The notes beneath the pieces were generated by a model. That model was not told where the DNA came from. It was given only the letters and a program-made list of their open reading frames with translations, and made no database searches. 64,000 nucleotides of DNA, taken from contig NZ_CP022098.1 in the NCBI RefSeq assembly GCF_002305875.1, positions 1,860,001 through 1,924,000 on the forward strand, written 5' to 3'. Every line of letters starts with the position of its first letter. Within the stretch, counting starts at the first letter, position 1. Position numbers and translations under genes: made by a program. This stretch comes from Cystobacter fuscus. GTDB lineage: Bacteria; Myxococcota; Myxococcia; Myxococcales; Myxococcaceae. Positions 9,611 to 45,263 of the stretch are shown one piece after another.

Positions 9611-20471
<10,861 letters not shown>

Positions 20472-20475
<4 letters not shown>

Positions 20476-22978: not shown

Positions 22979-23046
22979 GGGCAGAAGAGGAGCAAGGAGC
23001 CCCCCACGGCATCGCGAACTTCCCTGTGCGCCGGGCAGGGAAGGCA

Positions 23047-24607: not shown

Positions 24608-26668
24608 ATGTCGATCAAAACGTTGAAGGCCGTATCCAGTGCCACGTGCATGACTATGGCCATCCGGCTGCTCACCGCTTGTGGCCACGAGGCAGGACAG
24701 CCGGAGCTGCGTCCGGCCTGGAGTGACCCCGAGAGCGCCTGGGTCCCCGCCCACTCGCCCGTGCTCGAGGGCTACGTCTGGAACGGGGCCCGAGAGCGGT
24801 TCGAGGCAGTGCGCTACGCCGACGTGGACGGGATGGCCGTGCTGGAGGGCGACATCCTGCTGGGGAGTGTGGAGCAGGTGAAGGCACACACTCGTGAGGT
24901 CCAGGCCCACGGAGGGCTCCAGCCCCAGGGCGTGCGGGCGCAAGGAGTGGCCATCAGCGGATTGCGCTACAGGTGGCCCGATGCGACGGTGCCGTACACC
25001 ATCGACCCGAGCCTCCCCAGCCAGTTCCGGGTAACAGACGCCATCGCCCACTGGCAGTCGAAGACGCCACTGCGCTTCGTGCTGCGCACGGCGAGCAACG
25101 CGGCGCTCTACCCCAACTACGTCACCTTCCGGCCTAACAACGGGTGCAGCTCGTCAGTGGGGATGAGGGGCGGCCAGCAGTTCATCAACCTGGAGGCCGC
25201 GTGCAGCACGGGCAACACCATCCATGAAATCGGCCACGCCATCGGCCTGTGGCACGAGCAGAACCGCGAGGACCGCGACTCCAACGTGCGCATCCTGTGG
25301 GAGAACATCCAGGCCGACTACGCGTACAACTTCGACCAGCACATCGGCGATGGCGACGATGTGTTCAGCTACGACTTCGGTTCCATCATGCACTACGGGG
25401 CCTATGCGTTCTCCTCCAACGGACTGCCCACCATCGAGACGCTGGGGGGCCAGTCCATCGGCCAGCGCGACGGGTTGAGCTTCGCGGACGTGAACGCCAC
25501 CATCAAGCTGTACTCGCGGCAGATTTTGGCCAACGAGTCCATCCCCAGCTTCCAAACCTGGGCTGCGCGGACTCGTACGGTGGTGACTGGCGACTTCAAT
25601 GGAGATGGGCGGACGGACATCGCAGCGGTGGGCGCTGACGGCTGGCAAGCCTTGCCCGTGGCGCTCTCCAACGGCAATGGCTCCTTCCGAGTGGTCAACG
25701 AGTCCATCCCCAGCTTCCAAACCTGGGCTGCGCAGACTCGTATGGTGGTGACTGGCGACTTCAATGGGGATGGGCGGACGGACATCGCAGCGGTGGGCGC
25801 TGACGGCTGGCTGGCCCTGCCCGTGGCGCTCTCCAACGGCAATGGCTCCTTCCGAGTGGTCAACGAGTCCATCCCCAGCTTCCAAACCTGGGCTGCGCAG
25901 ACTCGTACGGTGGTGACTGGCGACTTCAATGGGGATGGGCGGACGGACATCGCAGCGGTGGGCGCTGACGGCTGGCAGGCCTTGCCCGTGGCGCTCTCCA
26001 ACGGCAATGGCTCCTTCCGAGTGGTCAACGAGTCCATCCCCAGCTTCCAAACCTGGGCTGCGCAGACTCGTACGGTGGTGACTGGCGACTTCAATGGGGA
26101 TGGGCGGACGGACATCGCAGCGGTGGGCGCTGACGGCTGGCAGGCCTTGCCCGTGGCGCTCTCCAACGGCAATGGCTCCTTCCGAGTGGTCAACGAGTCC
26201 ATCCCCAGCTTCCAAACCTGGGCTGCGCAGACTCGTACGGTGGTGACTGGCGACTTCAATGGGGATGGGCGGACGGACATCGCAGCGGTGGGCGCTGACG
26301 GCTGGCAGGCCTTGCCCGTAGCGCTCTCCAACGGCAATGGCTCCTTCCGAGTGGTCAACGAGTCCATCCCCAGCTTCCAAACCTGGGCTGCGCAGACTCG
26401 TACGGTGGTGACTGGCGACTTCAATGGGGATGGGCGGACGGACATCGCAGCGGTGGGCGCTGACGGCTGGCTGGCCCTGCCCGTGGCGCTCTCCAACGGC
26501 AATGGCTCCTTCCGAGTGGCCAACGAGTTCATCCCGTACTTCCAAACCTGGGCTGCGCAGACTCGTACGGTGGTGACTGGCGACTTCAATGGGGATGGGC
26601 AGACGGACATCGCGGCAGTGGGCGGTGAAGGCTGGGGGACCTTGCCTGTAGCGCTCCTCGACTACTGA
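24608..26668 (+). CDS. Astacin-like (M12A) lipoprotein metalloprotease with FG-GAP repeats
   Basis: A 686-residue protein with a signal ending LLTAC, probably a lipoprotein. The catalytic domain (about 115-305) has the zinc motif HEIGHAIGLWHEQNR and the Met-turn SIMHYGAY, both diagnostic for astacins. From residue 309 on it consists of seven repeats of 55 residues, each with FNGDGRTDIAAVG, a calcium-binding FG-GAP/VCBS motif that may form a propeller-like binding module. The repeats are almost identical at the DNA level. GAGGAG lies about 12 bp before ATG 24608. Likely a secreted or surface predation enzyme; monocistronic. Confidence 0.88.
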   Translation: MSIKTLKAVSSATCMTMAIRLLTACGHEAGQPELRPAWSDPESAWVPAHSPVLEGYVWNGARERFEAVRYADVDGMAVLEGDILLGSVEQVKAHTREVQAHGGLQPQGVRAQGVAISGLRYRWPDATVPYTIDPSLPSQFRVTDAIAHWQSKTPLRFVLRTASNAALYPNYVTFRPNNGCSSSVGMRGGQQFINLEAACSTGNTIHEIGHAIGLWHEQNREDRDSNVRILWENIQADYAYNFDQHIGDGDDVFSYDFGSIMHYGAYAFSSNGLPTIETLGGQSIGQRDGLSFADVNATIKLYSRQILANESIPSFQTWAARTRTVVTGDFNGDGRTDIAAVGADGWQALPVALSNGNGSFRVVNESIPSFQTWAAQTRMVVTGDFNGDGRTDIAAVGADGWLALPVALSNGNGSFRVVNESIPSFQTWAAQTRTVVTGDFNGDGRTDIAAVGADGWQALPVALSNGNGSFRVVNESIPSFQTWAAQTRTVVTGDFNGDGRTDIAAVGADGWQALPVALSNGNGSFRVVNESIPSFQTWAAQTRTVVTGDFNGDGRTDIAAVGADGWQALPVALSNGNGSFRVVNESIPSFQTWAAQTRTVVTGDFNGDGRTDIAAVGADGWLALPVALSNGNGSFRVANEFIPYFQTWAAQTRTVVTGDFNGDGQTDIAAVGGEGWGTLPVALLDY
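25532..26665 (+). repeat. Seven tandem 165-bp repeats inside the protease gene
   Basis: Units begin (aacgag) at 25532, 25697, 25862, 26027, 26192, 26357 and 26522, exactly 165 bp apart. Units 2-6 differ by a handful of bases; the last is the most diverged and cut short by the stop. Two unit types (WQALPVAL and WLALPVAL) alternate, as expected from recent unequal crossover. Confidence 0.95.
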
Positions 26669-26802
26669 ATGCCTGCAAAAGGTGCTCGAGGGGTTCGGTG
26701 ACCGGGACAAACCGGAGAAGGCCGGTGTCCCTCGAGCGCATCAACCGCCGAGCCGGGCAGCTCGACCGTTCGCTCGCGTCCTACCTACTGAATCAGCAGT
26801 AG
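26669..26802. other. Intergenic hairpin region
   Basis: gctcgaggg (near 26686) and ccctcgagc (near 26732) form a 9-bp stem across about 40 bp, placed just after the protease stop. It may end transcription or be a repeat fragment. A short frame ending RINRRAGQLDRSLASYLLNQ may be the tail of a lost gene. Confidence 0.3.
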
Positions 26803-26882
26803 CGTCTAGGCAGGAGATAGGCCACGTGGAGGGGGAGGGCTGGTGCAGAGGGGACGAGGAGGGCCGCGGACGGGTGCCGGCC
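26803..26882 (+). repeat. Dispersed 80-bp repeat R2, copy a
   Basis: cgtctaggcaggag, then gggggagggctggtgcag and gaggagggccgcggacgggt. Near copies lie at 30197-30277, 38668-38730 and 48026-48105, all in the same orientation and downstream of plus-strand genes. A REP end (ggtgtcagacgattcg, 26896) follows closely. Confidence 0.75.
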
Positions 26883-26939
26883 GGGCTCCCGGAAGGGTGT
26901 CAGACGATTCGCAGGAAACGAGGTGTCGGAACGAGTCCT

Positions 26940-27660
26940 TTGAGTGATGCCTGGAGGCTGTCCATGGACCCATAGGGTGAAAGTCCCGAAGCGGGAGAAG
27001 GTCGAACCGCATAGCTTGGGTGGCACCGAGAGGGGAGAGCCCTGCGGTGAAGCCCACCGACAAAGCCCCGGAAAGCGGGGTGAGCGAGTGCGCGGGCCGC
27101 AACGATGAGTGAACGCCCGGAAGAGGCCTCGTGACTCGTCAACTCCGGGTGCCGAGCTGGCTCAAAGACGGCGAAGGCAGCAGGAACTCCCCGAAGACGA
27201 CCTTGGGGGGTCCACCCGGCGGGGTAGAGGGCGGCGGCACGTGAACAAGGCCATGGATGGAAACAGGGAAGGGCTCCTCGCCCCGCGGAGAAAGCCCGCG
27301 GAAGCAAGGTAGCCGCGCGAGCCGAGGAGGCGAAGTGCGGTGAAGGCGAGAGCCTGGCAGATGGGTCCGTAGTAGCGATGAAGCGGGGTAATGCCCGTGG
27401 AGCCAAGGGGCCCTGCCGGAGGCATTCGGAACGTGAGGTGAGGCGGGAGTGGGATGACAAGACCCACCGGAAATGCGCAGGAGCCTCGAATGAAGATGGA
27501 CCGCTGGGCGAAATCCGCCCCCGGCTGGCAGCGGTGGAGTAGGGGCGAATGGCTCCGAAAGTCGGCGGCCAGAAGGACGGAAGCATAACCCCGGCGGAGG
27601 ACGCCTCCGCGGTGAGCCGGATGCGGGAAACCCGCCCGTCCGGTTCGAAGTGGCGGGGGC
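26940..27660 (+). ncRNA. Group II intron ribozyme core without a reverse transcriptase
   Basis: The strongest sign is a domain V hairpin at 27614-27646: GAGCCGGATGCGGGAAACCC at its 5' side and CGTCCGGTTC at its 3' side, with the AGC catalytic triad and GAAA loop. Upstream are typical domain I strings (tagggtgaaagtcccgaagc, aagccccggaaagcggggtgagc). About 700 bp of structured sequence holds no reverse transcriptase frame, so it is either an ORF-less intron or one that lost its protein. The exact 5' and 3' splice ends are not resolved. Confidence 0.65.
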
Positions 27661-27924
27661 CGGAGACGGAGTGATGGTGAGCTCTAAACGGGCACGAAGC
27701 CGGAAACGGCGGAGACGGCCAAGAGCAGCCTGCACACCACCGCGCCGGCCCTCGACCCGATCACCATCCCCTGCGGAAGCCTCGACACTAGGCGCCCTGG
27801 GGTGGCTCTCGCGCCGGGGTCAGGCTCGCATCTGCCGTGGACAGTCCCAGGTGCTCCAAAATCGCTCGTTGGCCGCCCCGCATCCTATTCTTCAGGGCTG
27901 TTTCTCCTGGGGGAGGCCAACGCC

Positions 27925-29565
27925 ATGTCGAAGAAGCAACCGAATCCGACGGTGGGGAAGGGCGGCGGAACGCAGCTGGGGGTCCGGCGGGGCCCTCCAC
28001 GCTGGGCGCCGGCCGGGGCCCTCTGGCTCATTGTCCTGATTTTCCATGCGGCCTGCGCGTCGCAGGGGCCCGCGTCAAGCAGGGGGACCGGGGGTGGCCG
28101 GGCAGGTGACGAGGCCGCGGAGAGCGAGGCGCGAGCGGCGCCGAGGGAGCTGCAGCCGGTGCTGGTGGTGTACGCGGCCGAGGTGGAGGCGCGCGGCAGC
28201 ACGCGGGTGGTGGCCGTCACGCGGGAGGAGTATCAGCGTGCGGTGGCGCAACTCCTCCAGCACCACCAGGTGCACGGGACGCCCCAGGAGGCCGCCCAGG
28301 GGCTGCTCCAGGCCATGCCCGAGGAGGAGCTGCTCGCCGAGGTGTATCGGGACAGGGTCCTCACGCTGGTGCCCCTCATCGACAAGGGTTCGCTCGTCCC
28401 CGAGGCCGAGGCGGCGCTCAAGGCGAAGTACCTGCGGTGGTGCCAGCCACGCGGCGGCGGGGACTGCCTGGGCCTCTTCACGGATGGACCCTACCTGCGC
28501 ACCGACGACAGGCGCACCCTGGCGCTCGCCCTGGCCTTCGGAGGTGTGCTTGACGAGACGCGAGCGGCCCTTGGGCGCGAGCTCAGCCCTCAGGCACTGC
28601 TCTCCTCCCTGGTGTGGGCCGCGGGCCTGTACCTGGCCCTCTGGCTGCTACCCGAGCCGAGCACCAAGGCGGCCGCCGCCGCGCTCTCCGTGGTACTTCT
28701 GGCCTGGTTGGGGGTGGACGCCATGTGGGGCCTCATGGACGGGTGGGCCCGCATGGCGCACGCGGCGCACGAGGCCACCACGTTCGAGGAGCTGCGCGAC
28801 GCCGGCGAGGCCTTCGGCAAGCGGATAGGAATGGACGCGGCCCGGGCCCTCATTCTCGCAGTGGCCACCCTCACCGGACGAACGTTGGGCGAGGTGGCGA
28901 CGCACCTTCGCTCGCTGCCGAGGTTCAACCAGGTGCAGGCGCAGTGGGCGGCCCAGGGCATGGAGGGCTCGGTAGCGGTGGCGATGGAGGAGGCGGCCGC
29001 GGTGGAGGTGGTGGTGGAGCAGAGCCGCGCCCTCGTCGTCCTCACCTCCCCGCAGGCGCCCGTGGCCATCAACGTCCTGGCCAGGAGTGGCGGCTCGGGA
29101 GCTGCTCGAGGGCATGGGGGCACCGTGGCCATCCAGCACCGCGGGGGCAACAAGCAGGTCATCCTCGGCAACGGCGAGCGGTGGCACCTCCCGCGAGGCC
29201 AGAGCTACAATGACATACCGGCGGAAGACCGGCTCGGCGACGAGCTGCAGGCGGCCGTGAGGGAGGAGGCGGCGAGGTGGTCCCAGGCTGAGCTGTCAGT
29301 CGAGGAGCTGGAGGCGATAAAGAAGATGCGAGCAGCCGGCAAGGAGTACCGCGCGAATCTGCTGGAGCGGCAGGCCCGAGGGCGGTGGATCGAGAGACAG
29401 GTGGCCAACCGCTTCCCGCACCTATCCTGGAACAGCCGCGGCGTGGACGTCACCGGACCTGGTGGCCAGAGCTACCACTACGAGATCCTGTCGGGTACGG
29501 AGTCGAACTTCGCGCTGCACGGGCGCCGGATGGCGAGCACCTTCTTCCGCATGATCTTCTTCTGA
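27925..29565 (+). CDS. SitA-like polymorphic toxin lipoprotein
   Basis: A 546-residue protein from ATG 27925 (GGGGGAGG upstream). The signal ends FHAACAS, giving a lipobox and thus outer-membrane lipidation, as for the Myxococcus swarm-inhibition SitA toxins transferred by outer-membrane exchange. The middle has two hydrophobic helices (about 225-265). The C-terminal toxin part contains GRWIERQVANRFPHL, then GVDVTGPGGQSYHYEILSGT, a spacing compatible with a PD-(D/E)XK-type nuclease (inferred). The next gene starts seven bases after its stop and should give immunity. SitA5-like is my best family guess. Confidence 0.75.
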   Translation: MSKKQPNPTVGKGGGTQLGVRRGPPRWAPAGALWLIVLIFHAACASQGPASSRGTGGGRAGDEAAESEARAAPRELQPVLVVYAAEVEARGSTRVVAVTREEYQRAVAQLLQHHQVHGTPQEAAQGLLQAMPEEELLAEVYRDRVLTLVPLIDKGSLVPEAEAALKAKYLRWCQPRGGGDCLGLFTDGPYLRTDDRRTLALALAFGGVLDETRAALGRELSPQALLSSLVWAAGLYLALWLLPEPSTKAAAAALSVVLLAWLGVDAMWGLMDGWARMAHAAHEATTFEELRDAGEAFGKRIGMDAARALILAVATLTGRTLGEVATHLRSLPRFNQVQAQWAAQGMEGSVAVAMEEAAAVEVVVEQSRALVVLTSPQAPVAINVLARSGGSGAARGHGGTVAIQHRGGNKQVILGNGERWHLPRGQSYNDIPAEDRLGDELQAAVREEAARWSQAELSVEELEAIKKMRAAGKEYRANLLERQARGRWIERQVANRFPHLSWNSRGVDVTGPGGQSYHYEILSGTESNFALHGRRMASTFFRMIFF

Positions 29566-29572
29566 GGCCCGC

Positions 29573-30190
29573 GTGACTCCCAACATCCACTACGAGAATC
29601 GAGAGATTGAGGGCGAGCACCTGGAGCTGACCGATAAGACGGCCATCTACTGGCTCGGGCCAAACGTCACCCTCCGGGGCTGTACGCTGGTCACGAACGT
29701 TTCGGCGCGGTGGCTGCACCTGGTGTCGGGAACCCTGATCGACTGCACCATTCATGCGAAGAGCGAGCTGAAAACGCTACCGTGGGCAGCCATGAAGTTG
29801 AAGGGGTGCCGGTTCAAGGGCCGCTTCGGTGGAAACGACTTCGGGTTGCGCGAGGACCTGGACGAGAGGCAGAAGCTCGGAGGCATTGAGGACTGCGACT
29901 TCTCAGAGGCCCGACTCAACGGGTGCCGGTTCCGCAATTGCGACATGAAGACCATTCGCCTGCCGCGGTGGCCGTGCTTCACCTTCTTGGATCCCCTCAT
30001 GCACGTGGCGGAACTGCGCCGGCACGCTTGGCCCGGACTGGTCGGCAGAGCGACTGTCGAGGCTGTCTGCGAGTCGCCTGTCGGCACAGTCGCGGTGACC
30101 TGGCACGCACCCACCGTGGCCGAGAAGATGGACACGACGGTTGAGGAGCTGCGCGCCGCCCTGGAGACGGCCCCCGGGATTTTCATGTAG
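29573..30190 (+). CDS. Immunity protein of the SitA-like toxin (pentapeptide-like beta-helix)
   Basis: A 205-residue protein starting at GTG 29573, seven bases after the toxin stop, so the pair is co-transcribed. It has loose pentapeptide-type rungs (LRGCTLVTN, LIDCTIHA, LKGCRFKGRF, IEDCDFSEARLNGCRFRNCD), suggesting a right-handed beta-helix that could mimic nucleic acid or block the toxin. The C-terminal 60 residues are not repetitive. A relic of a related gene is at 36163-36300. Confidence 0.7.
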   Translation: MTPNIHYENREIEGEHLELTDKTAIYWLGPNVTLRGCTLVTNVSARWLHLVSGTLIDCTIHAKSELKTLPWAAMKLKGCRFKGRFGGNDFGLREDLDERQKLGGIEDCDFSEARLNGCRFRNCDMKTIRLPRWPCFTFLDPLMHVAELRRHAWPGLVGRATVEAVCESPVGTVAVTWHAPTVAEKMDTTVEELRAALETAPGIFM

Positions 30191-30196
30191 GGCGGG

Positions 30197-30277
30197 CGTC
30201 TAGGCAGGAGAGAGGCCGAGTTGAGGGGGGAGGGCGGGTGCGGAGGGGCCGGGGAGGGCCGCTGACGGGTGCCGGCT
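30197..30277 (+). repeat. Dispersed repeat R2, copy b
   Basis: gcgtctaggcaggagagagg, gggggagggcgggtgcggag and agggccgctgacgggtgccg match copy a at 26803 with about 10% changes. It starts seven bases after the immunity stop and runs directly into the REP end ggatggtgtcaaagg at 30282. Confidence 0.75.
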
Positions 30278-30283
30278 CGGGAT

Positions 30284-31028
30284 GGTGTCAAAGGACTCGA
30301 AACGCGGGACCCAGCCGGGATGGTGTCCGCCGGGATGGTGTCGCCGGGATGGTGTCAAAGGACTCGAAACGCGGGACCCAAGCCAGAACGAGACGTGGCG
30401 TGGACGGTGGAACCCACTCTCTTCAACTGTTTCTGCGGACTTGCGAGTTGGCGCGCGCGGTGCATCCGGCCTCGATGTGCTCACGAGGGGGGGGAAGGGG
30501 ATGGGTTGGCCGCTGAGGATGTTCCAGGAGGAGGGTGTCTATTTCGTCACGTCCAGGTAATTGGACGAAGCGCTGGAGCAAACGGGGAAGTGAGGACCTG
30601 GCGGGGGAGGGGCGCTTCGCACAGGAATGGGCCGAGCCAGTGGAACTGGAGCTCGCGCGACTGCCGTGCTGGGAAGGACTGAAGGAGGAGCAGAGGCAGC
30701 GAGCGGTACGGGGGATGGTGGAGCAAGAGGAAGCCAAGGCGCGAACCCGGGGCACGCCTGTGCTGGGAGCGCGAGCCGTGAAGGCGCAGCACCCGCATAC
30801 CCGGCCCGAGCACCTCAAGAGGAGCCCGAGGCCGTTGGGCCATGCCTCCACGCGGCAGGCATTGAAGGAGCTACGCGAGCACTATCGGGCCTTCGTCGCG
30901 GCATTTCGAGAGGCGGCGGCGCGGTGGAGTCGGGGGGATTTCCTGGCCTGCTTTCCTCCCTTCGCCTTCCCGCCGCGTGTCGCGCCTTCTCAAATTCTTT
31001 GACACCCTCTCGGCGACACCCTCTCGGC
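30284..31028 (+). mobile_element. RAYT-type element relic with REP ends
   Basis: The left REP end ggtgtcaaaggactcgaaa occurs at 30284 and 30351, separated by three copies of gccgggatggtgtc with small variation. The right end, tctcaaattctttgacacc (30988-31006), is its inverted match (GGTGTCAAAGAATTTGAGA). A deleted transposase lies between. The right GACACC is doubled as gacaccctctcggc at 31001 and 31015. The stretch from 30351 to 30557 recurs at 34990-35198. Confidence 0.65.
30501..31002 (+). pseudogene. REP-associated tyrosine transposase (RAYT), internally deleted
   Basis: ATG 30501 gives MGWPLRMFQEEGVYFVTSR then a stop at 30558, the start of a Y1-transposase/RAYT. A second frame (about 30586-31002) gives the RAYT tail with PCWEGLKEEQRQRAVRGMVE, RPEHLKRSPRPLGHAS and YRAFVAAFREAAARWSRGDF. 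The HUH/Tyr catalytic middle (over 200 codons) is missing. Family assignment rests on N- and C-terminal resemblance to myxobacterial RAYT proteins I recall. Confidence 0.65.
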
Positions 31029-31135
31029 CATGTGGAGGGAGCGGACTGGAGCCCGCCCGCCCAGAAGCGCCGGGATGGCAACAGCGACAGGACCTTCTGG
31101 GCTCAAGTCAGTCGTGCAACCGGTCCGAGGGCGTG

Positions 31136-31663
31136 TCATGGGAGCAATGGCTTGTTCGTGGAAGCCATCAGCTTGACGTGTCCCTGCCGTTGCTCGGCCA
31201 GGGCATGAGGCCCGACATGGTAGGGCCTATCTGGTAGCTTCTGGAGTGTCTTACGGGTGACCGAGAAAACTCTCTTTGCCCAGGCCTGAAAGGCCGCGGG
31301 TTTCTCCACCCAGGCACCATGTTCGGCGAACTGCCGTTGGTAGTACAACCGTCCCCTCCTGAGAATCTCGCCGTCGTAGTAGCAGCGGTCCAGCTCGATC
31401 ACCGGAGAACGGTCTGAGTCCACCGACCAATGACCTTGCTGAGGAATGTATCTCAGGATGACTGACTTCAGGTCCTCCGGCTGTACCAGGATGACCCTCA
31501 GCCGTGTCTTGCCGAACTCGGCGACCTCGAGGTCAGGGAGCTGTACGGGAGCAGAATCCCGCGACTCCCCATCCAGGAAGACCACCGGGCACTCTTCTCT
31601 GAGTCTCTTCTCGAGGAGCCGAGTGTCTTCTGGCATCAAGAAAAAATTGATCTGGTGCCCCAT
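31136..31663 (-). CDS. Probable immunity protein of the 31.7-kb toxin
   Basis: From ATG 31663 a 175-residue acidic to neutral cytoplasmic protein (MGHQINFFLMPEDTRLLEKR, LRVILVQPEDLKSVILRYIP, VIELDRCYYDGEILRRGRLY) with no family I recognise. It starts seven bases after the toxin stop on the same strand, the spacing of the other toxin/immunity pairs here. The frame is open 27 codons further, but those overlap the toxin gene. The role is inferred from position. Confidence 0.65.
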   Translation of the reverse strand: MGHQINFFLMPEDTRLLEKRLREECPVVFLDGESRDSAPVQLPDLEVAEFGKTRLRVILVQPEDLKSVILRYIPQQGHWSVDSDRSPVIELDRCYYDGEILRRGRLYYQRQFAEHGAWVEKPAAFQAWAKRVFSVTRKTLQKLPDRPYHVGPHALAEQRQGHVKLMASTNKPLLP

Positions 31664-31670
31664 GAGAGCC

Positions 31671-32090
31671 TTATTTGTTGTACGGATGGAACTCGGGGCG
31701 CTTGCCCTCGGCTTTCTGGATATCATCCAGGGCCTGCCGCTCACGTGTCACGGGTTGCCCCTTCTTCGTCTGGAGCCCCACCTGGTGCATTTCCTTGACC
31801 TCTTCTGTCTTCTTGTCAGTGCCCACGACATCGACGAACCGCTTGCTCTTGGTTCCCCCGGGTGTCTCAACCATATGCTCGGTCTTGGGCTGTAGTCCAC
31901 GCGCCTCGACCTCCTGGGCGACCTCCTTGACCTTCGCCTGATGCTCCGTCCCCCCCTTCCTTCCATTTGGATTCGGGGGAGTCTTCACGCTCTGGACGGT
32001 GGCCTTGTTTGGAACGGCCTTGGGGACTCGAGGGGCCGCCAGGGACAGGCCACACCACAGGAGCAAACTGACTGCCAGCAGTTCTTTCAC
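31671..32090 (-). CDS. Secreted PD-(D/E)XK-like nuclease toxin
   Basis: GTG 32090 with AAGGAG eight bases upstream gives a 139-residue protein. A signal peptide (VKELLAVSLLLWCGLSLAAP) is followed by a compact toxin domain: GGTEHQAKVKEVAQEVEARG, then SKRFVDVVGTD with the acidic residue, EVKEMHQVGLQTKKG with E-x-H-Q, and the terminal ALDDIQKAEGKRPEFHPYN. That order is common in myxobacterial polymorphic toxin tips. No long N-terminal delivery region is present. It pairs with the gene at 31136-31663. Confidence 0.7.
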   Translation of the reverse strand: MKELLAVSLLLWCGLSLAAPRVPKAVPNKATVQSVKTPPNPNGRKGGTEHQAKVKEVAQEVEARGLQPKTEHMVETPGGTKSKRFVDVVGTDKKTEEVKEMHQVGLQTKKGQPVTRERQALDDIQKAEGKRPEFHPYNK

Positions 32091-32111
32091 GGGGTTACTC
32101 CTTGGGTTCTG

Positions 32112-32214
32112 ATGCGCGGCAGGGTACCACCTCCCCACACTGAGACAGGCTGCCGTCCAACGCGGGCGTGAACGTGGAGAGTCCGGCGGGTGTGAGCCAC
32201 GGCGGGGCGTACCC
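32112..32214 (+). repeat. 103-bp duplicated segment, copy 1 (partner 35237-35339)
   Basis: Runs from atgcgcggcagggtacc to cggcggggcgtaccc and recurs at 35237-35339 with a single visible change (cca versus ccg). In both places a fragment of the NRPS-tail gene follows shortly afterwards. Confidence 0.9.
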
Positions 32215-32353
32215 CAGCGTCAACGCGAACTGCCTCGATGGCGCCGACCTCTCCGGCGTCCAGGTCACCTACCTCGACGGGCTCCACGACACCTGGGCGC
32301 GGCTCGTCGTCGCGCCGTATGTGAGCCCGTTCTCCGCCAAGGTGCGTGCCTGA
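32168..32353 (+). pseudogene. Unrecognised gene tail
   Basis: An open frame giving MNVESPAGVSHGGAYPSVNA, then CLDGADLSGVQVTYLDGLHDTW and ending SAKVRA. It looks like real coding sequence by composition but lacks a start context, and its 5' part lies in the 103-bp duplicated segment. Probably a 3' remnant of a secreted or surface protein gene. Confidence 0.35.
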
Positions 32354-32422
32354 GCGCACGCCACGCCCTCACCCCGTGGCGCGCAGGGCCGCCTTGAGCG
32401 TCGGGACGAAGGGTGGCCACTG

Positions 32423-32818
32423 GCGGGAACACGAGTCCCCCACACCGCTCCCGCCCGGACTGGACGACCCCGCTGCACGCCTTCGTCGACCGCCTGCCGG
32501 ACACCCCGGAGGGCGTGCACCGGGAGCGGTACAACGTCGTCGTGCCACCGAACTGCTGGGTGGACATGCAGATCCCCCGGGGAGTCTCGCACCAGTTCAA
32601 CGCGGTCGGGCCCATGCGGTGATCGACTCGGTGCACCCGGAGGAGTCCATCGAAACCCTGCGCGAAGGCATGTCCGGGTACCGGATGATGGCGCAGACCA
32701 TCTTCCTGGCGGAGCACCGCAGTTCAGCCGCCACCTGCGAGGACACCGGCGACGGGGGCTGAGGGCAGAAGAGGAGCAAGGAGCCCCCACGGCATCGCGA
32801 ACTTCCCTGTGCGCCGGG
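32423..32818 (+). pseudogene. Internally deleted copy of the NRPS-tail cupin gene
   Basis: gggaacacgagtcccccac (about 32424) matches 22414-22432. The sequence then jumps to cgctcccgcccggactggac (about 32449), matching 22663 onward, and runs to about 32818 with very few changes. So about 230 bp of the middle are gone. One C is missing in gggccc(c)atgcgg near 32610, shifting the frame. It includes the 3' flank up to gtgcgccgggc. Confidence 0.9.
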
Positions 32819-32937
32819 CCGAGGCAGAAGCCAGGCCGCCACCTTGGGCAGGCCTGTCCAGGCCTGCCGCCCAGGAGGGGCGCGGCAGGGGCACCAGGTC
32901 TCTGGGCTGTGTCGGCTTGCGTCTCAACACCAGGCGC

Positions 32938-33303
32938 GCTGCCGTGCTGGGAAGGACTGAAGGAGAAGCAGAGGCAGCGAGCGGTACGGGGGATGGTGGA
33001 GCAAGAGGAAGCCAAGGCGCGAACCCGGGGCACGCCTGTGCTGGGAGCGCGAGCCGTGAAGGCGCAGCACCCGCATACCCGGCCCGAGCACCTCAAGAGG
33101 AGCCCGAGGCCGTTGGGCCATGCCTCCACGCGGCAGGCATTGAAGGAGCTACGCGAGCACTATCGGGCCTTCGTCGCGGCATTTCGAGAGGCGGCGGCGC
33201 GGTGGAGTCGGGGGGATTTCCTGGCCTGCTTTCCTCCCTTTGCCTTCCCGCCGCGTGTCGCGCCTTCTCAAATTCTTTGACACCCTCTCGGACACCCTCT
33301 CGG
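32938..33303 (+). pseudogene. RAYT C-terminal relic, second copy
   Basis: From tgccgtgctgggaagg the sequence matches 30662-31007 almost base for base (for example gagaagcag versus gaggagcag). It codes for PCWEGLKEKQRQRAV through FAFPPRVAPSQIL-stop at 33280. The REP end tctttgacacc follows, with gacaccctctcg (33279) doubled as gacaccctctcgg (33291). No N-terminal part is present. Confidence 0.8.
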
Positions 33304-33461
33304 CTCGCGCTCCCCCTCTCGGCCTATCCCGCATCTGACCGGGTAGTACTAGGGGGGGCCGCAAACCCCTTTTTTTCGCCGGTTGACGCCCGAAACCCAC
33401 TGATTCTCATGAACTGTAAATTCAGGAATCAGTGTTTTACAGGCCCTCTGTAGCAGTTTCG

Positions 33462-34781
33462 TTAAGGCGTGTACGAGATGTTTAAGAACTGGTGAAGAAT
33501 CGTGTTCTTCGCAGGGTTGATGGCGGTGAACAAGGGCGTGTCGTTCACCACCTCAAAGTTGTCTCCCACATTCTGACTGCCACTTACATCGAAGAAGCTG
33601 TAGTACGCATTAAAGGGGATGTAGTTTCCAACTGCGGGAATGACTTGGGGACTTCTGGACTGGCCAGCGGCGGTTTTGTCTAGGAGTGCTGGATTGGCTA
33701 GCGAGTTAATCCATGAGTAAACTGCCTTGCCTAGAATATTGCCGTTTGCATCAACATCTGTGCAATACGCTGCCCCCAAGACAATCCACTTGCCGCTGCT
33801 GGCGTGTTTTCTAACATTGTGAGCGTACAAATGCGAGCACGCGTTGGTAGATTCCCAAAAAATGTAGGGCTGCTGAGGACCGCTATTACCTTGGTATGTC
33901 CCTTGATTCACTGTGGTCCACCCAGAGCCATTCCAGTACTGCCAGCCGCTGGAAGAAGCTAGATTTGACGTTCTGATTAGACTTACTCCGAGTGTTTGCT
34001 TGCCATTGGATTTTTGACCAACATTGGTCATGAATGCATAGTAGTAAATACCTTCCTTGACAATGTTGGAGGGATGCGAAAAGCCATAGAAATTGGGAAG
34101 GCTAGAATTCCATGGCTCTGGGATCAACACCATTCTGTTGGAGTTGCTGGGTGCGTTGTAGTTGATTGGATTCATGGCCCATGTATTTCCACCGTCGGCC
34201 GAGCTGATCCAGCCGAGACCCCAAACTGTGGTGGCACCAGGTGCCAGGAATGGTATTCCATTCACAAAACTAACCGATGAATACCATTCGTGGTGGGTGA
34301 GGCCGTAGATGTTTGGATACTGGACGTACGGTGAAAAAATCCAATTCCGCATTTGATAGTGGGATTGGTTGAGGTCTGAGTCCGCTGGGGTTATGGTGGC
34401 GCCGTGGACCGTGTTATTTGGCTCCATCTGCCAAAGATGGCGTGCACCCCAATTGTTTCCTGTAACTTTTATTCTGTAGTTTTGTGAGTGCGGAATTTGG
34501 AAGTAGGTCTCTGAACCAAATTTATAGGGGTTGATGGGGCCGTCGAACCAGGCTCCGTAGGATGGTCCCGATGCCACCGTTCCGTTGCATTGCTCACTGA
34601 TGTGCTTGTATCCGCAGTTCGCCGTCATTACTCCATAGTGATAGTTCCCTTCGATACCGAACATGGGGTCTATCGTGCCTTGGAAAGTAATATTCAATTG
34701 CTCGGCATGAGCAACGGACGAGATGGCGGTAGATGTCACCAAGATGGCTGATGCCATCGCAAAAGGTATCCTGAAACGCAC
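33462..34781 (-). CDS. Secreted protein of unknown function, AT-rich outlier
   Basis: A 439-residue protein with a clean signal peptide (ATAISS...AHA, cleavage near residue 26). Aromatic- and Asn-rich beta-type sequence, with ISSADGGNTWAMNP resembling an Asp-box/BNR blade, so a five-bladed-propeller glycosidase-like fold is possible but unproven. GTG at 34781 with AAGAGAG upstream. Base composition is near half G+C by eye, far below both neighbours, and wobble positions use A/T freely, so it was probably acquired recently. It stands alone between RAYT relics. No family recognised. Confidence 0.75.
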   Translation of the reverse strand: MRFRIPFAMASAILVTSTAISSVAHAEQLNITFQGTIDPMFGIEGNYHYGVMTANCGYKHISEQCNGTVASGPSYGAWFDGPINPYKFGSETYFQIPHSQNYRIKVTGNNWGARHLWQMEPNNTVHGATITPADSDLNQSHYQMRNWIFSPYVQYPNIYGLTHHEWYSSVSFVNGIPFLAPGATTVWGLGWISSADGGNTWAMNPINYNAPSNSNRMVLIPEPWNSSLPNFYGFSHPSNIVKEGIYYYAFMTNVGQKSNGKQTLGVSLIRTSNLASSSGWQYWNGSGWTTVNQGTYQGNSGPQQPYIFWESTNACSHLYAHNVRKHASSGKWIVLGAAYCTDVDANGNILGKAVYSWINSLANPALLDKTAAGQSRSPQVIPAVGNYIPFNAYYSFFDVSGSQNVGDNFEVVNDTPLFTAINPAKNTILHQFLNISYTP

Positions 34782-34986
34782 GGCGTTCTCTCTTTCAGTT
34801 GTGAGCAGTCACCTGACTGCTCAGGTGTTCTATCAGACGGGAATGAGGCTGTATTAACGGATCGAGGATTTTTTTTAGTTTATTACTGTGTTGTCCCCCC
34901 CCCCGCAAGGCGGTAGCGAGGTGGCGCCCGACAGAAAACCGAGGCGCCCCGATGGACCGTTCGCCAGCCTCGATGCGTGAACGCAG

Positions 34987-35226
34987 GATGGTGTCAAAGG
35001 ACTCGAAACGCGGGACCCAAGCCAGAACGAGACGGGGCGTGGACGGTGGAACCCACTCTCTTCAACTGTTTCCGCGGACTTGCGAGTTGGCGCGCGCGGT
35101 GCATTTCGCCTCGATGTGCTCACGAGGGGGGACGGGGATGGGTTGGCCGCTGAGGATGTTCCAGGAGGAGGGCTACTACTTCGTCACGTCCAGGTGCATC
35201 CAGGGGCGACTGCTGCTACGCCCAGC
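34987..35226 (+). repeat. RAYT upstream region and gene head, second copy
   Basis: gatggtgtcaaaggactcga (34988) through gcccagcgcgg repeats 30349-30557 with few changes. It contains the REP end and ATG 35137, coding MGWPLRMFQEEGYYFVTSR then CIQGRLLLRP, a slightly longer RAYT start than the copy at 30501. The rest of the transposase is missing; the 103-bp duplicated segment follows at 35237. Confidence 0.75.
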
Positions 35227-35236
35227 GCGGAGGTGA

Positions 35237-35339
35237 ATGCGCGGCAGGGTACCGCCTCCCCACACTGAGACAGGCTGCCGTCCAACGCGGGCGTGAACGT
35301 GGAGAGTCCGGCGGGTGTGAGCCACGGCGGGGCGTACCC
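35237..35339 (+). repeat. 103-bp duplicated segment, copy 2
   Basis: Matches 32112-32214. Here it is fused directly to the NRPS-tail fragment at 35339, whereas copy 1 is followed by about 200 bp of other sequence first. Confidence 0.9.
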
Positions 35340-35541
35340 TTCGTCGACCGCCTGCCGGACACCCCGGAGGGCGTGCACCGGGAGCGGTACAACGTCGTCG
35401 TGCCACCGAACTGCTGGGTGGACATGCAGATCCCCCGGGGAGTCTCGCACCAGTTCAACGCGGTCGGGCCCCATGCGGTGATCGACTCGGTGCACCCGGA
35501 GGAGTCCATCGAAACCCTGCGCGAAGGCATGTCCGGGTACC
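35339..35541 (+). pseudogene. Short fragment of the NRPS-tail cupin gene
   Basis: ccttcgtcgaccgcctgccg to ggcatgtccgggtaccg matches 22696-22899 almost exactly. It keeps the coding frame (ERYNVVVPPNCWVDMQIPRG) and runs in frame into unrelated sequence. The frame therefore stays open to 36515 as a chimera that is unlikely to be functional. Confidence 0.88.
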
Positions 35542-35774
35542 GCGGGATGCTCGCTGGCAGCGCGCGCCATCGGTGGCGGGTGCAGCGCACGAGTCCCAGG
35601 TCACAGGAGGGCGCTGGCCAGGCCCAGCGGGTGTCTTCAACGAGGACCGGGGCGGCCATTGCGGACACCGAGGGCACTGACGCTGGCACCGAGGCGCGCG
35701 AAGCCGCGGTCCCGACGGAGGTTGGCGCGGCCGAGTCTGCCAGGGCGCCGGAGCGGGCCCGGAATCGACCGCGC

Positions 35775-36112
35775 GGCGTGAGCGTGGTGGACGAGGAGGT
35801 ACACCCGGAGGGGAAGGGTGGTGGATGGCTGGATGGCGTGGGCGACGGGCGGCCGTTCGAGGTGCCCGTGACGCTCGACTACTTCCAGGGGTTCCTCGCG
35901 CAAGCTGGCGTGCCTGGCACTGCGTTGCCCAGGGATGGGCGCACACTGGCGCCTCAGCAGGCATTGGAGCTGGTGCAGCACCTGCTCTCCACTCCGGTGA
36001 CGCTGGGCAACTTCGGGCTGCGCCGCATGGCGGCGCACCTCCTCTTGGAGGTAGCCGCTAGCGGTGAGGGGGTGATGAGGGACGAAACCCAGAGCACCTG
36101 GCGCTCGGTCGC
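35775..36112 (+). pseudogene. Relic of a large myxobacterial surface or toxin-type protein
   Basis: The frame reads VSVVDEEVHPEGKGGGWLDG, then FEVPVTLDYFQGFLAQAGVP and LVQHLLSTPVTLGNFGLRRM to AAHLLLEVAASGEGVM. It has coding character and resembles mid-regions of large myxobacterial lipoprotein toxins (my recollection, not verified). It lacks both ends. The immunity-like scrap that follows suggests an old toxin/immunity locus. Confidence 0.4.
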
Positions 36113-36162
36113 AGGGTCCAGGAGGTGTTGGACGCGAAGGGCCTACTCCGCCCAGTGCTCTC

Positions 36163-36300
36163 ACTGTGACTTCTCGGAGGCTCGGCTCGACGAGTGCGTT
36201 TTCCACAGTTGCGACATGCGGACAATCAGGCTTCCAAAGTGGCCGTGCTTTACCATCTTGGAGCCCATCAAGCACGGTCGGGAGTTGTGGACTGGAGCGG
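36163..36300 (+). pseudogene. Immunity-gene scrap related to 29573-30190
   Basis: CDFSEARLDECVFHSCDMRT, then IRLPKWPCFTILEPIKH parallels CDFSEARLNGCRFRNCDMKT, IRLPRWPCFTFLDPLMH in the intact immunity gene (about residues 104-145). Both upstream and downstream parts are absent. Confidence 0.7.
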
Positions 36301-36663
36301 AGGGGCCGAGGAGCTGGAGTACTCGTCGCGGGGCGGCGCCGCCGGGCTGTTCTTCAGCAACGGGTGAGGCCGGGGCGCGTCACGCTCCTCTCCTCCCCAC
36401 CTGCTTGGGGGAGCCCAGGGCCCACGGGAAGGAAGTGGGGAGGGGAGAGGTGCTCCTTCGGCTGCTCGCCTCGAGGTCGACGGAACTCTCAGCCCGAGAC
36501 TCGTTCCTTCCCTGATGGGGTAGGACGGTCGCCAGTCTGGCTCCTCCCCGGCTCATTCCCGAGCACAACGGGTTGCCGGGAACGGGCGCGAGTGTTTGCG
36601 ATCCTTCACTCCGCCATGGGTACACCTGGTGCAATCGCTCGCGGCGGACACGGAGGTCCGAAC

Positions 36664-38667
36664 GTGAGTCGAAGACACGGCAGGGGGTGGTGGGGTGGGG
36701 TGCTGTCTGTGCTGTGGTTGGCGGGCTGTGGTGACATGGGGAGCCCGCGGGAGCTGGCCTCCGCGGGGGTGGGCGTCGCGTCCTCTCCAGTCCTGCCAGA
36801 GCGCTGCATGCCTCGCACGGATTCCTATGTGAACGCCTCCTCCCCATTCGAGGACAGCTACGTCTCCCAGCGCGAGCCCACCGTCAACTTCGGTACGTCC
36901 CCGGTGCTGATGGTGGATGGCTCGCCCCGGCTCGAGTCCTACCTGAAGTTCTCGCCCTTCAGTGAGGGCCTCGCCATCCGCGCGGCGCGGTTGGAGTTCA
37001 CCTCCGTCGATGGCACGTCGGACGGTCCACGCCTCTACCGTGCCGGCGATGACTGGACCGAGGGCGAGCTCACCTGGAACAACCGACCTCCCGTGCTGGG
37101 CGGGGTGCTGGGCGATCTCGGCGCCATCCACCCCAGTACGCGGGTGTCCTATGACGTGACGGGCGTGGTGACACAGGAACAGCCCTACAGCTTCGTCCTC
37201 CTGTCGGACTCGAGCGATGGCGTGGACTTCTATTCGAACGAGAGCGTCCAGGCGGAGCGCTTGCCCATGCTGGTCGTCACGACGGAAAGCCCTCCGTTCT
37301 GTTCCTACAGGGGCTCGGGCACGGGCGGCCTCAGCGCGTGGGTGCGGCAGCTTGGGGGGGCGGGCGCCGAGTCGGTGTCGGTGGTGGCCCCCCATCCCCA
37401 GGGCGGCTTCGTGGCCGCGGGCCTGTTCGGTGACGCGGTGTTCGCCGAGGGCGAGGGCCTCGCGCTCGCGCGCTACGGCGCGGACGGCACGTTTCAGTGG
37501 TCGAGCGTGGTGGCCACGAACGACGTGCTGGTGACGGACATCACCGTCACATCCCTGGGCAACCTCCTCGTGGTGGGCCGCTACCACAACGCGCCCGACC
37601 TGGGCACGGGCCCCTTTCCCTCCGCGCCGGAGGAGGAGGCGTGGATGGCCGGATTCTTCATCGCCAAGTTCTCCCCCGTGGGGCGGCTGGTGTGGGCGCA
37701 TGGCTTCGTGGCCCGGGACGCCACGGGCATGCTCCAGCGGGTGGCCCCGCAGGCGGTGGCCACCGATGCCCATGGCAGCCTCCTCGTCACTGGCGGCTTC
37801 TCGGGCCAGATGGACCTGGGGACGGGGCCGATCGATTCGGGCTCCACGGGCGAGCCCGGCTTCGCGATGAACACAGGGGGCTTCGTGGCGAAGTTCTCCT
37901 GGGAAGGCCAGCCGCTCTGGTCGCGGGCCCTGCGCACCCACCTGGCCGGGCAGTACGTCCAGGGCTGGACCGTGGCCGCGGACGCGGAGGACAACGTGCT
38001 CCTCGGTGGCTCGGCGAGCGCCCTGACGGACCTCGGAGATGGCCCGTTGGGGGAGGAGGGCTGGTTGGGCGACCCCGTGCCCTTCCTGGCGAAGTACACC
38101 CCCTCGGGCGATTTGTCGTGGAAGCGCGTGTTCAGCGGGGGGGCCGGCGAGGTGAGGGTCATCCAGCCGCAAGGCGCGGATCGCATCGCCTTCGGCGCCA
38201 ACATCGCGGGCTTCTTCACCTTCGCGGGGCACTCCTATGAAGGGGAGTTCCTGGAGACCCTGTCCGCCAGTGGCTTTCTCGGGGTCATGACAGCGACGGG
38301 AAGCGACGCATGGTTGCGTGCCGTGGGTGAGCCCGTCTCCCTCGGCGAGCTGGCCGTGGGGAACGACGGCTCGCTCGTCCTCTCCGGTGTGGGCCTCGAG
38401 GCGTTCGACGTGGGGGGTGGGGCGCTGGGCTTCGCCTGGGGCTCTCCCTTCGTCCCCACCAATCGGCCCTTCGTGGCGCGCTATACGGCACAGGGCGAGC
38501 ACCTCTGGTCCCGCTCCTTCGATCAGGGCCGCTCGCTGGATATGGCGCTGCTATCCGATGGGGGGGTGCTGCTCGGTATCTCCCTCCGGTGGAATTTCCA
38601 GCTCGATGGGCGCACCTTCACGCCCGTGGGCGGCGGCGACCTGCTCTACCTGATGCTCAATCCGTAG
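36664..38667 (+). CDS. Lipoprotein with DNRLRE domain and beta-propeller repeats
   Basis: GTG 36664 with GGAGG about eight bases upstream gives 667 residues; an in-frame ATG at 36616 is less well placed. The signal ends LWLAGCG (lipobox). Residues about 35-195 form a DNRLRE-type carbohydrate-binding domain (DSYVNASSPFEDSYVSQREP, NFGTSPVLMVDGSPRLESYL, WTEGELTWNNRP). The rest has repeating propeller blades (GGFVAAGLFGDAVFAEGEGL, NLLVVGRYHNAPDLGTGPF, SLLVTGGFSGQMDLGTGPI). Typical of large exported myxobacterial adhesin-like proteins. Function unknown. Confidence 0.82.
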   Translation: MSRRHGRGWWGGVLSVLWLAGCGDMGSPRELASAGVGVASSPVLPERCMPRTDSYVNASSPFEDSYVSQREPTVNFGTSPVLMVDGSPRLESYLKFSPFSEGLAIRAARLEFTSVDGTSDGPRLYRAGDDWTEGELTWNNRPPVLGGVLGDLGAIHPSTRVSYDVTGVVTQEQPYSFVLLSDSSDGVDFYSNESVQAERLPMLVVTTESPPFCSYRGSGTGGLSAWVRQLGGAGAESVSVVAPHPQGGFVAAGLFGDAVFAEGEGLALARYGADGTFQWSSVVATNDVLVTDITVTSLGNLLVVGRYHNAPDLGTGPFPSAPEEEAWMAGFFIAKFSPVGRLVWAHGFVARDATGMLQRVAPQAVATDAHGSLLVTGGFSGQMDLGTGPIDSGSTGEPGFAMNTGGFVAKFSWEGQPLWSRALRTHLAGQYVQGWTVAADAEDNVLLGGSASALTDLGDGPLGEEGWLGDPVPFLAKYTPSGDLSWKRVFSGGAGEVRVIQPQGADRIAFGANIAGFFTFAGHSYEGEFLETLSASGFLGVMTATGSDAWLRAVGEPVSLGELAVGNDGSLVLSGVGLEAFDVGGGALGFAWGSPFVPTNRPFVARYTAQGEHLWSRSFDQGRSLDMALLSDGGVLLGISLRWNFQLDGRTFTPVGGGDLLYLMLNP

Positions 38668-38730
38668 CGTATAGGCAGGAGCGAAGCCGAGTGGAGGGGG
38701 AGGGCTGGTGCAGCGTGTGTGGGGGCACGC
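38668..38730 (+). repeat. Dispersed repeat R2, copy c (shorter)
   Basis: gcgtataggcaggagcgaag and gtggagggggagggctggtg match copies a and b, then the similarity stops after gtgcag. It starts immediately after the stop codon at 38667. About 220 bp of non-coding sequence without a recognised gene follows before the hip operators. Confidence 0.65.
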
Positions 38731-42946: not shown

Positions 42947-43426
42947 CTAGTCACCCAGGGCCAGCTCGCGCACCTGCTGCCGGTTGAAGGGCTTGCGCAG
43001 CTGGCGCAGGAGCCGGGACTCGCCGAACTCCGCCTGCAGCTCCGCCCAGGAGTAGTCCGAGTAGGCCGAGCAGAGCACCACCGGCAGCGTGGGGGCCACC
43101 TGCCGCAGGTGCCGCAGCGTCTCGGCGCCGTTCCAGCCCGGGGGCATCCGGTAGTCCAGGAAGACCAGGGCATAGGGCCGGCCCGCGGCCAGCGCCTCGC
43201 GCACCCGCTCCACGCCCTCCTCGCCCTGGTAGGCGGAATCCACCTCCACCACCGTCTTGCCCTCGCTGGAGCCCGCCGCCTCGGGACCGAAGAGCGCGTC
43301 GGCCATCAGGTCCAGCTCGCCCCGGCTCTTGAGCGGCTCGTCGGTGAGGATGCGGCGGAAGTCGGTGTGGATGGCCTCCGAGTCGTCGATGACGAGGAGG
43401 CGCCTGGGGTTCGGGTGCATGCTCAT
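42947..43426 (-). CDS. Response regulator (receiver domain only)
   Basis: A 159-residue protein overlapping the kinase stop (ATGA at 43426). Receiver features: LLVIDDSEAIH, the phospho-acceptor Asp in LVFLDYRMPPGWNG (about 108), VVLCSAYSDYSW, and Lys in LRKPFNR. An insertion of about 35 residues (SRGELDLMADALFGPEAAGS) between the first strands is unusual and is shared by a myxobacterial receiver class that partners with HNVGN-type kinases. No output domain, so it must act by protein contact or phospho-relay. Confidence 0.88.
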   Translation of the reverse strand: MSMHPNPRRLLVIDDSEAIHTDFRRILTDEPLKSRGELDLMADALFGPEAAGSSEGKTVVEVDSAYQGEEGVERVREALAAGRPYALVFLDYRMPPGWNGAETLRHLRQVAPTLPVVLCSAYSDYSWAELQAEFGESRLLRQLRKPFNRQQVRELALGD

Positions 43427-44523
43427 GTCTCCGCCTGGGCAGGGGGTGGGGGAATCACCAGCGTGAAGGTGGCGCCCCGGCCGGGGCCCTCGCTCTCCAC
43501 CCTGAGGGTACCGCCCAGTTCCTGGGCCGCCAGAGCGCTCGAGTGCAGGCCAAAGCCATGCCCCTCCTCGCGCGTGGTGAAGCCATACTGGAAGATGCGC
43601 GTGAGCAGCTCGGGCGCGATGCCCATGCCGTTGTCGCGCAGGGCGATGTGGATGGAGCCCTCGGCGGAGCGTTGCAGCAGCACGACGAGGCGCCGCGAGT
43701 CCTCGGGCACGGGATCCAGCGCGTACTTGGCGTTGCTCACCAGGTTGACGAGGATCATCAACAGCTTGTGCTTGTCCGTGACGAGGGGCGGCACGGGCTC
43801 CAGCCGCCGCTCCACCGTCACGTGGTGGCGCGTGAGGCCCGCGGCGTTGATGCGCAGCGCGTCCTCCACCAGCTCCGAGAGCACCACCGGCTCGTACAGG
43901 CGCGGCGTGCGGGCGTAGTCCTGCTGCACCTTGACGATCTCCCCGATGTGCTCGGTGTAACGGCCGACGTCCTCCAACAGGGAGATGACCTCCTGGCGCT
44001 CGTCCATCAGGTTCTGGCCGAGCTTGTCGAGAAAGGGCGTGAGCAGCTTGCCCCGCTCGTCCTCGGTGAGGAAGACGGCGAGATTGGCCTGCCGCGCCTG
44101 GAGCATCTGGGCCACCCGGCTCACATGGTCCAGGCGCATGCCCAGCACGCGCTCCTTGGCGACCTGGGAGGACGTGTAGACGCTGTTGAGCACGTTGCCC
44201 ACGTTGTGCAGCACGTTGGTGGCGATCTCCGCCATGCCCGTGCGCCGCGCCGTCTGCACCAGCTGCTGGTGGACCGACTTGAGCTCGCGCGTGCGCTCCT
44301 CCACGCGCTGCTCGAGCCCCTCGTTGGCCGCGCGCAGGTCCTCCTCGCGGCGGCGCAGCCGGGTGGCCATGGCCTCGAAGGCCTTGGCCAGCTGGCCCAG
44401 CTCGTCCTCGCGCGCGGTGTCGCTGAAGAACGTCGACAGCGCGATGACCACCGCGATGCGCACCCCCATCTTGATGAGCGTCGAGCGGGCCAGGGGTGAA
44501 TGCGGAGGAGGCAGGTGTGGCAT
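43423..44523 (-). CDS. Sensor histidine kinase, sensor region lost
   Basis: From ATG 44523 a 366-residue kinase. One hydrophobic helix (IKMGVRIAVVIALSTFF) leads straight into the second half of a HAMP domain (DELGQLAKAFEAMATRLRRR), then a coiled coil (about 60-95), the His box ATNVLHNVGNVLNSV, and the ATP domain with NLVSNAKYAL, DNGMGI and GFGLHSSALAAQELGG. Normal relatives have two membrane helices and a periplasmic sensor, absent here, so an in-frame deletion is likely. It overlaps the response regulator gene by four bases. The ligand cannot be predicted. Confidence 0.85.
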   Translation of the reverse strand: MPHLPPPHSPLARSTLIKMGVRIAVVIALSTFFSDTAREDELGQLAKAFEAMATRLRRREEDLRAANEGLEQRVEERTRELKSVHQQLVQTARRTGMAEIATNVLHNVGNVLNSVYTSSQVAKERVLGMRLDHVSRVAQMLQARQANLAVFLTEDERGKLLTPFLDKLGQNLMDERQEVISLLEDVGRYTEHIGEIVKVQQDYARTPRLYEPVVLSELVEDALRINAAGLTRHHVTVERRLEPVPPLVTDKHKLLMILVNLVSNAKYALDPVPEDSRRLVVLLQRSAEGSIHIALRDNGMGIAPELLTRIFQYGFTTREEGHGFGLHSSALAAQELGGTLRVESEGPGRGATFTLVIPPPPAQAET

Positions 44524-45209: not shown

Positions 45210-45263
45210 ACCAAGGATGCTGAAGGTACGCTCTTGATCCCTGGTATGCAAGAGATACCTTCC
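44826..45263. repeat. 438-bp duplicated segment, copy 2 (partner 7904-8341)
   Basis: Collinear with 7904-8341 without indels. The left edge is the REP tandem at 44824; the right edge at 45263 is the point where the pectate-lyase tail begins. Confidence 0.92.

Follow-up and report, generated by a model that had tools for sequence, protein, structure and literature searches.

The pieces of a cupin-type gene scattered downstream of an NRPS cluster in Cystobacter fuscus are probably the leftovers of two successive direct duplications that later decayed by deletion in an unstable genomic island. The window, that is, the whole 64,000-nucleotide stretch analyzed here (positions 1860001-1924000 of a single 12.35-Mb contig), contains the parent gene, copy A, and two partial copies, B and C (Table 1). 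We propose a history of three steps. First, in an ancestor of the island of the present genome and of the congener G001, a segment extending from about 22405 through the stop codon into the dispersed repeat R310 would have been duplicated directly, yielding copy B; the shared B junction is observed, and the mechanism is our interpretation of it. Second, in the present genome, the neighborhood of B would have been duplicated again, as order and orientation suggest, giving a further 103-bp segment and copy C in the original order. This second unit was possibly a tandem one of ~2.28 kb (30655-32933), with the second copy beginning at 32934 at the RAYT-like 3' end; alternatively, the RAYT-like pieces and a low-G+C insert would have arrived separately. 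Third, deletions with overlaps of ~1-3 bp at their joints, as read by eye, would have removed most of the copies, insertions adding to their breakup; the products are observed, their order is deduced and the loss of the remainder of the unit is assumed. Exchange between A and B by gene conversion, which a few sites suggest, could have kept these two alike. The claim of the initial annotation that the cluster end was copied and shredded stands, and several steps were involved.

The cupin scraps and the repeat pairs at the locus are beyond chance. The 384 kb around and including the window contain 27 repeat pairs of at least 80 nt and at least 95% identity (7 labelled tandem), versus 2 at the same threshold in six 80-kb control windows (480 kb). 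Pairs not labelled tandem in the 384 kb are direct or inverted at ratios of 60/6 at 80% identity or more, 19/1 at 95% and 12/0 at 98%; these pairs are not independent and include RAYT-like copies and one unlabelled tandem-array pair (1885531/1886191). The direct-strand excess is no mark of this locus because the control windows behave likewise, with 34 direct and 0 inverted pairs at 80% or more, tandem pairs included.

Table 1. Coordinates of the duplicated pieces and of neighboring elements within the window
Feature	Position	Strand	Remarks
Cupin-type ORF, copy A (parent)	22247-22978	+	open, 243 aa, last gene in the NRPS cluster
Stretch of A represented in copy B	22405-23036	+	includes 58 bp 3' of the stop codon; left edge +/- ~10 bp
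RAYT-like element 'a'	30273-31028	+	internally deleted, about 420 bp missing relative to G001
103-bp segment, first copy	32112-32214	+	from self-comparison; present in G001 too
Gene 3' tail	32201-32353	+	homologues 80-84% elsewhere in the present genome, G001 and G003; 73% in G002
Copy B left junction	32403-32435	+	cupin 5' stub attached to flank of other origin; junction shared with G001
Copy B body	32445-32819	+	99.2% to 22660-23036; after ~224-bp internal deletion
R310 middle part	32807-32941	+	after copy B; R310 last part at 27773-27868
RAYT-like 3' piece	32934-33304	+	98.7% to 30655-31028; ends at element 3' end
Low-G+C insert	33305-34985		~1.7 kb, about 50% G+C; between RAYT 3' end and RAYT 5' end
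RAYT-like 5' piece	34986-35237	+	94% to 'a'; starts at element 5' end; broken inside ORF
103-bp segment, second copy	35237-35339	+	offset 3125
Cupin copy C	35338-35542	+	205 bp; offset 2858 from B

The parent gene and copy B

The label 'cupin' is that of the initial annotation; searches of Pfam and NCBIfam with protein A gave no match, and no family was found for it. Of 18 loci returned by a protein search, 17 are actinobacterial; the other, in Sorangium cellulosum So ce26, is 93% identical. At the DNA level, the gene has strong matches in 6 of 98 genomes, the present one included; at E <= 0.001 there are matches in 27 of the 98, and the remaining 21 are short and weak. The same six genomes were recovered at E <= 1e-20 among 195 genomes, a set that overlaps the first (5 candidates were scored per genome in the 98-genome set and 2 in the 195-genome set). 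A second copy was found in two of the six, the present genome and G001. Among the best 40 candidates per genome, G001 has two cupin matches and G002, G003, G046 and G017 have one each, and no second copy was found in these four. The best 40 candidates were likewise scored in the RAYT search and both R310 searches, and all copy counts are lower bounds.

Copy B consists of a 5' stub near 32417-32435, a clean internal deletion of ~224 bp and the body, the alignment following the stub to about 32436 and resuming at cupin position ~22658 with a 2-bp overlap at the joint (read by eye). Over 377 columns, the body differs from A by one substitution and two 1-bp gaps, and a single C at about 32616 is missing relative to both A and C. 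The initial annotation had described two near-identical cupin fragments, one cleanly deleted and one short, and self-comparison of the window retrieves both, at 99.2% (B) and 99.5% (C); the sizes given for them need correction, from about 230 to ~224 bp for the deletion and from 203 to 205 bp for C. Copy B runs 58 bp past the stop codon, on into R310, and short R310-like pieces likewise follow the gene in G001 and G003; what was copied was therefore one uninterrupted stretch of DNA.

The chromosome carries some dozens of incomplete copies of R310, a repeat of ~310 bp: at least 32 matches to its first part (best 40 of 106 candidates) and at least 9 to its middle part (best 40 of 80 candidates), with the parts joined together in several copies. 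In the window, R310 parts occur at 26795-26893, 27773-27868, 30196-30281, 32807-32941, 38664-38713 and 48050-48103. In both G001 and G003, R310 sequence lies to the left of the cluster, and to its right are short R310 fragments of 50 and 38 nt.

How old is copy B? The initial annotation held that the copies are too similar to be old, and the comparison with G001 does not support this. Copies A and B of G001 sit on one 1.6-Mb contig, and the left junction of B is the same, matching 32403-32441 with 1 mismatch in 39 positions. G001 copy B retains the 224 bp that are absent here and stops earlier, at cupin position 22725. The flank at 31115-32241 is 98.3-99.1% identical between the two genomes, above both control stretches described below, and thus differs by 0.9-1.7%. 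Copy B is not private to the present genome and, given the shared left junction, was in place before the two lineages of the island parted; the idea that B arose recently and in this genome alone was rejected.

The near-identity of B and A is best explained by A-B exchange, that is, gene conversion, as far as few sites can indicate. Within the B body, eight substitution sites distinguish A of the present genome from A of G001; B of the present genome matches its own A at seven of the eight, and B of G001 matches its own A at three of the four within the stretch that it covers. Sites 22412 and 22840 speak against exchange, since there B of the present genome carries the G001 state and not that of its own A. 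The C that B and copy C share at 22840 was considered as proof that copy C derives from B and was rejected: five of six other genomes carry C at this site and one carries T. Because C prevails there, A of the present genome is probably the changed one.

Upstream of the junction, the sequences at 31053-31096 and 32201-32334 are ~430-460 bp apart in G001, G002 and G003 and 1.1 kb apart here, a spacing that would fit the interruption or replacement of a gene. Judged by comparison with relatives, the intervening sequence between A and B has been replaced.

The second block and the RAYT-like elements

Self-comparison of the window recovered all reported pieces, and the two cupin pairs, the 103-bp pair and the two RAYT pairs among the downstream pieces are all on the plus strand with E <= 4.4e-49. 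The two 103-bp segments are 99.0% identical over 103 columns, and copy C matches A (22695-22899) over 205 columns. The initial annotation linked both cupin fragments to the 103-bp segment. The segment does recur. In block C it abuts the cupin fragment with nothing in between; in copy B, by contrast, it lies ~200 bp upstream with the gene tail in between. Alignment of 30655-32933 with 32934-36200 yields three pieces that keep the original order, the RAYT 3' end at offset 2279, the 103 bp at 3125 and cupin C at 2858; over 682 columns in all, there are 3 substitutions and 4 gap positions. All copies thus have the strand and order of their parent, which argues for duplication. The 265 bp between the 103-bp and cupin parts (32215-32479) have no match in the second block, and alignment of 31029-32111 against 33305-36200 revealed no trace of it. 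By eye, the joints overlap by ~3 bp (R310/RAYT), 1 bp (RAYT/103 bp) and 2 bp (103 bp/cupin). A counterpart of copy C was looked for in G001, G002, G003, G046 and G017 and found in none, so that of the junctions sought in related genomes, the left one of B recurs (in G001) and those of C do not. Whichever origin holds for the RAYT block, the 103 bp plus cupin C is, on these alignments, a direct and colinear copy of the B neighborhood minus 265 bp. An open frame at 35373-36515 leads from fragment C, in the cupin frame, into sequence that is 77% like 29892-30005 of a pentapeptide ORF; it may be due to chance in G+C-rich DNA.

The first piece of the second block (32934) abuts the end of the 30655-32933 unit (32933/32941), and since it starts where the first unit ends, the arrangement suggests a tandem duplication of about 2.28 kb. 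The RAYT-like 3' piece could be either the start of such a second unit or a separate copy of the element. It aligns with 30655-31028 over 374 columns, and its next best copy in the chromosome reaches 95% (best 40 of 141 candidates). Two findings count against the 2.28-kb unit: no trace of 31029-32111 was found in 33305-36200, and the RAYT-like 3' piece stops at the element 3' end, as a separate element copy would (33302-33306 in the two longest of four matches to long chromosomal copies). The RAYT-like 5' piece begins at the element 5' end (34972-34989 in four of five matches to long copies); it aligns with 30347-30558 through 34986-35195 over 212 columns at 94.3%, and this lower identity to 'a' counts against duplication in that the piece needs a separate origin. 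Because both pieces end at element ends beside the insert, the 2.28-kb unit, and with it slightly the reading as decayed duplications, is weakened, and two rivals, RAYT-driven copying and a templated insertion, gain a little.

The low-G+C insert contains an ORF of 439 aa on the minus strand (33462-34781, 49% G+C), for which a family search and a structure comparison gave no family and no convincing structure match. Both RAYT-like elements bordering the insert are broken on their outer sides. With an element end on either side, the insert may have arrived together with the RAYT pieces as a single block, possibly through a RAYT-type insertion.

Block C could also have arisen by a one-step templated insertion, in which a polymerase engaged in break repair beside a resident RAYT piece took its template from 3 kb upstream, first 103 bp and, after omitting 265 bp, another 205 bp. 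Two short pieces in the template's order and strand, joints with 1-2 bp overlaps and the missing match for the intervening 265 bp are all consistent with such an event, but it leaves the nearby 98.7% RAYT 3' copy to a separate event, which the element-end data allow. We regard this origin of block C as conceivable, if doubtful.

The initial annotation attributed the copying itself to template switching or recombination around RAYT/REP sequences. RAYT remnants do lie near the scraps, as it stated, in the form of three RAYT-like pieces, and a fourth stretch of 60 bp (9445-9504, 82%) is located upstream of the cluster. The term 'RAYT-like' is used throughout because matches to the family models fall below cut-off: two full-length ORFs elsewhere in the chromosome score 50.1 and 48.4 bits against NF047646 (REP_Tyr_transpos; curated cut-off 80; E 2.5e-13 and 8.7e-13) and 20.6 and 19.7 against Pfam Y1_Tnp (cut-off 23). 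Both ORFs contain, as read by eye, the sequence HFH, which corresponds to the HUH motif. As for flanking REP palindromes, visual inspection gave no more than a terminal GGTGTCAAAG/CTTTGACACC pair.

In a RAYT-driven scenario, an HUH-type nuclease or single-strand intermediates would have caused template switching, by which parts of the cluster end were copied and joined together. In its favor are the three RAYT-like pieces found amid the scraps, the two joints within RAYT ORFs, the insert with a RAYT 3' end on one side and a RAYT 5' end on the other, and the 1-2 bp overlaps at which the RAYT, 103-bp and cupin pieces of block C meet. However, the joints of the cupin and 103-bp copies fall away from element ends, and RAYT ends were rejected as the joints of these copies; RAYT-like sequence is 1.4 kb upstream of the A-to-B joint in the present genome, where another stretch lies 0.5 kb downstream, and 1.1 kb upstream in G001. 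The copies are all direct, and none of the three elements at this site is intact, although the chromosome has full-length ORFs in other places. We therefore consider a RAYT origin of the scraps unlikely. A part for RAYT in the insert is possible, and the element ends at its borders and the two joints within RAYT ORFs speak for some such part. Template switching is possible for block C, given its joints with 1-2 bp overlaps.

The NRPS cluster and its surroundings

The NRPS cluster (9506-22978, ~13.4 kb) has sharp edges, and its NRPS part has a G+C content of 74%. Its identity to the present genome is 97.8% in G001, 97.4% in G003, 95.4% in G046, 94.8% in G017 and 93.8% in G002; in Sorangium, the 10.7 kb compared are 96.8% identical. 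The main pieces of two 6-kb control stretches, a small sample, are 88-93% identical in G001, 92-96% in G003 and 77-82% in G002, and G046 and G017 gave short control matches of 73-74%, the second stretch having been compared in G001, G002 and G003 only. Because the cluster identity exceeds that of the control stretches, the cluster is judged to be horizontally transferred; the case is clear where the genomes are distant and less so in G003. The flanks of the cluster are mostly unlike between genomes; a right flank is common to G046 and G017, at least ~100 bp of left flank are common to G001 and G003, and that of G002 on the right is 94.8% like window 42947-44419.

The large NRPS ORF shifts frame at about 10800-11335 in the present genome and is open over 3627-3654 codons in G001, G002, G003, G046 and G017; the frame change, present in this one of the six genomes whose cluster start was compared, is either a frameshift or a sequencing error. 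A 438-bp direct repeat (7904-8341 and 44826-45263, 99.3%) brackets a 36.5-kb region with the cluster. To the right of the cluster lie an ORF for an astacin-type protease (24608-26668) with 165-bp tandem repeats (FG-GAP; 25527-26651, copies 92-98% alike), a group II intron-like element at 26931-27765, a sitA5-like polymorphic toxin gene (27802-29562), preceded by the R310 last part, and, up to 30190, an ORF with a weak pentapeptide-repeat match. At Rfam gathering scores, 22000-46000 gave a group II intron only (RF02003 at 26971-27107), and G001 has an inverted copy of the 26931-27765 element near its copy B (94.4%).

The evident movement of the cluster between genomes bears on two further explanations. 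Copy B could be what is left of an additional copy of the cluster, acquired on a separate occasion, all the more as B includes the right edge of the cluster. However, B differs from A by less than A does from the alleles of the five other genomes (93-98% identity), and although conversion could hide such an origin, we consider it improbable. The cluster might also be mobile between myxobacterial families and orders with no transposase of its own: it would recombine at the dispersed R310 repeats, which flank it in part on both sides in two congeners, and would leave partial copies of its right end at each passage, so that the scraps would be its footprints; this more far-reaching idea is likewise improbable. 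That the scraps are an assembly artefact is very improbable: near-identical copies, long C runs, the frame change private to this genome and the C joints seen in this genome only would fit one, but the sequence is one contig and the B junction recurs in G001.

Relation to known systems and significance

Tandem duplication followed by deletion is a known kind of event in bacteria. The present locus resembles such cases in the direct orientation and colinear order of its pieces, in its short-overlap joints and in the loss of most of the second copy; it differs in that only scraps and no intact amplification are left, the borders are partly deduced and the timing comes from one congener. Bacterial tandem duplication is treated in PMC12607827 and PMC13423834. 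According to PMC5562445, the sitBAI loci and Mx-alpha of Myxococcus xanthus form a similarly variable region that contains imperfect repeats as well as mobile elements and SitA-type genes, and SitA loci are reported in or near prophage-like and other mobile elements, which fits the mosaic at the present locus; here, unlike there, an NRPS cluster adjoins. RAYT/REP systems (PMC2817692 and PMC3116915) share RAYT-like ORFs with the locus, with a REP_Tyr_transpos match that stays below cut-off here, but differ in the position of joints relative to element ends. The transfer of the indigoidine cluster into myxobacteria (PMC12766979) is similar in that a Streptomyces-related cluster occurs in scattered myxobacteria, but it concerns another cluster, and the word cupin is absent from that text. 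Among the titles listed by literature searches made without a locus name, none points to scraps of this type.

No function of the scraps is evident. The event is ordinary in kind, with a local history that is documented by the congener G001. Of greater interest than the scraps is their neighbor, the NRPS cluster, with its sharp borders and high similarity in distant myxobacteria. The scraps together with the G001 intermediate show how duplications beside a newly acquired biosynthetic cluster arise and erode, and the near-identity of two copies is no proof of recent copying: the junction can be old and the sequences kept alike.
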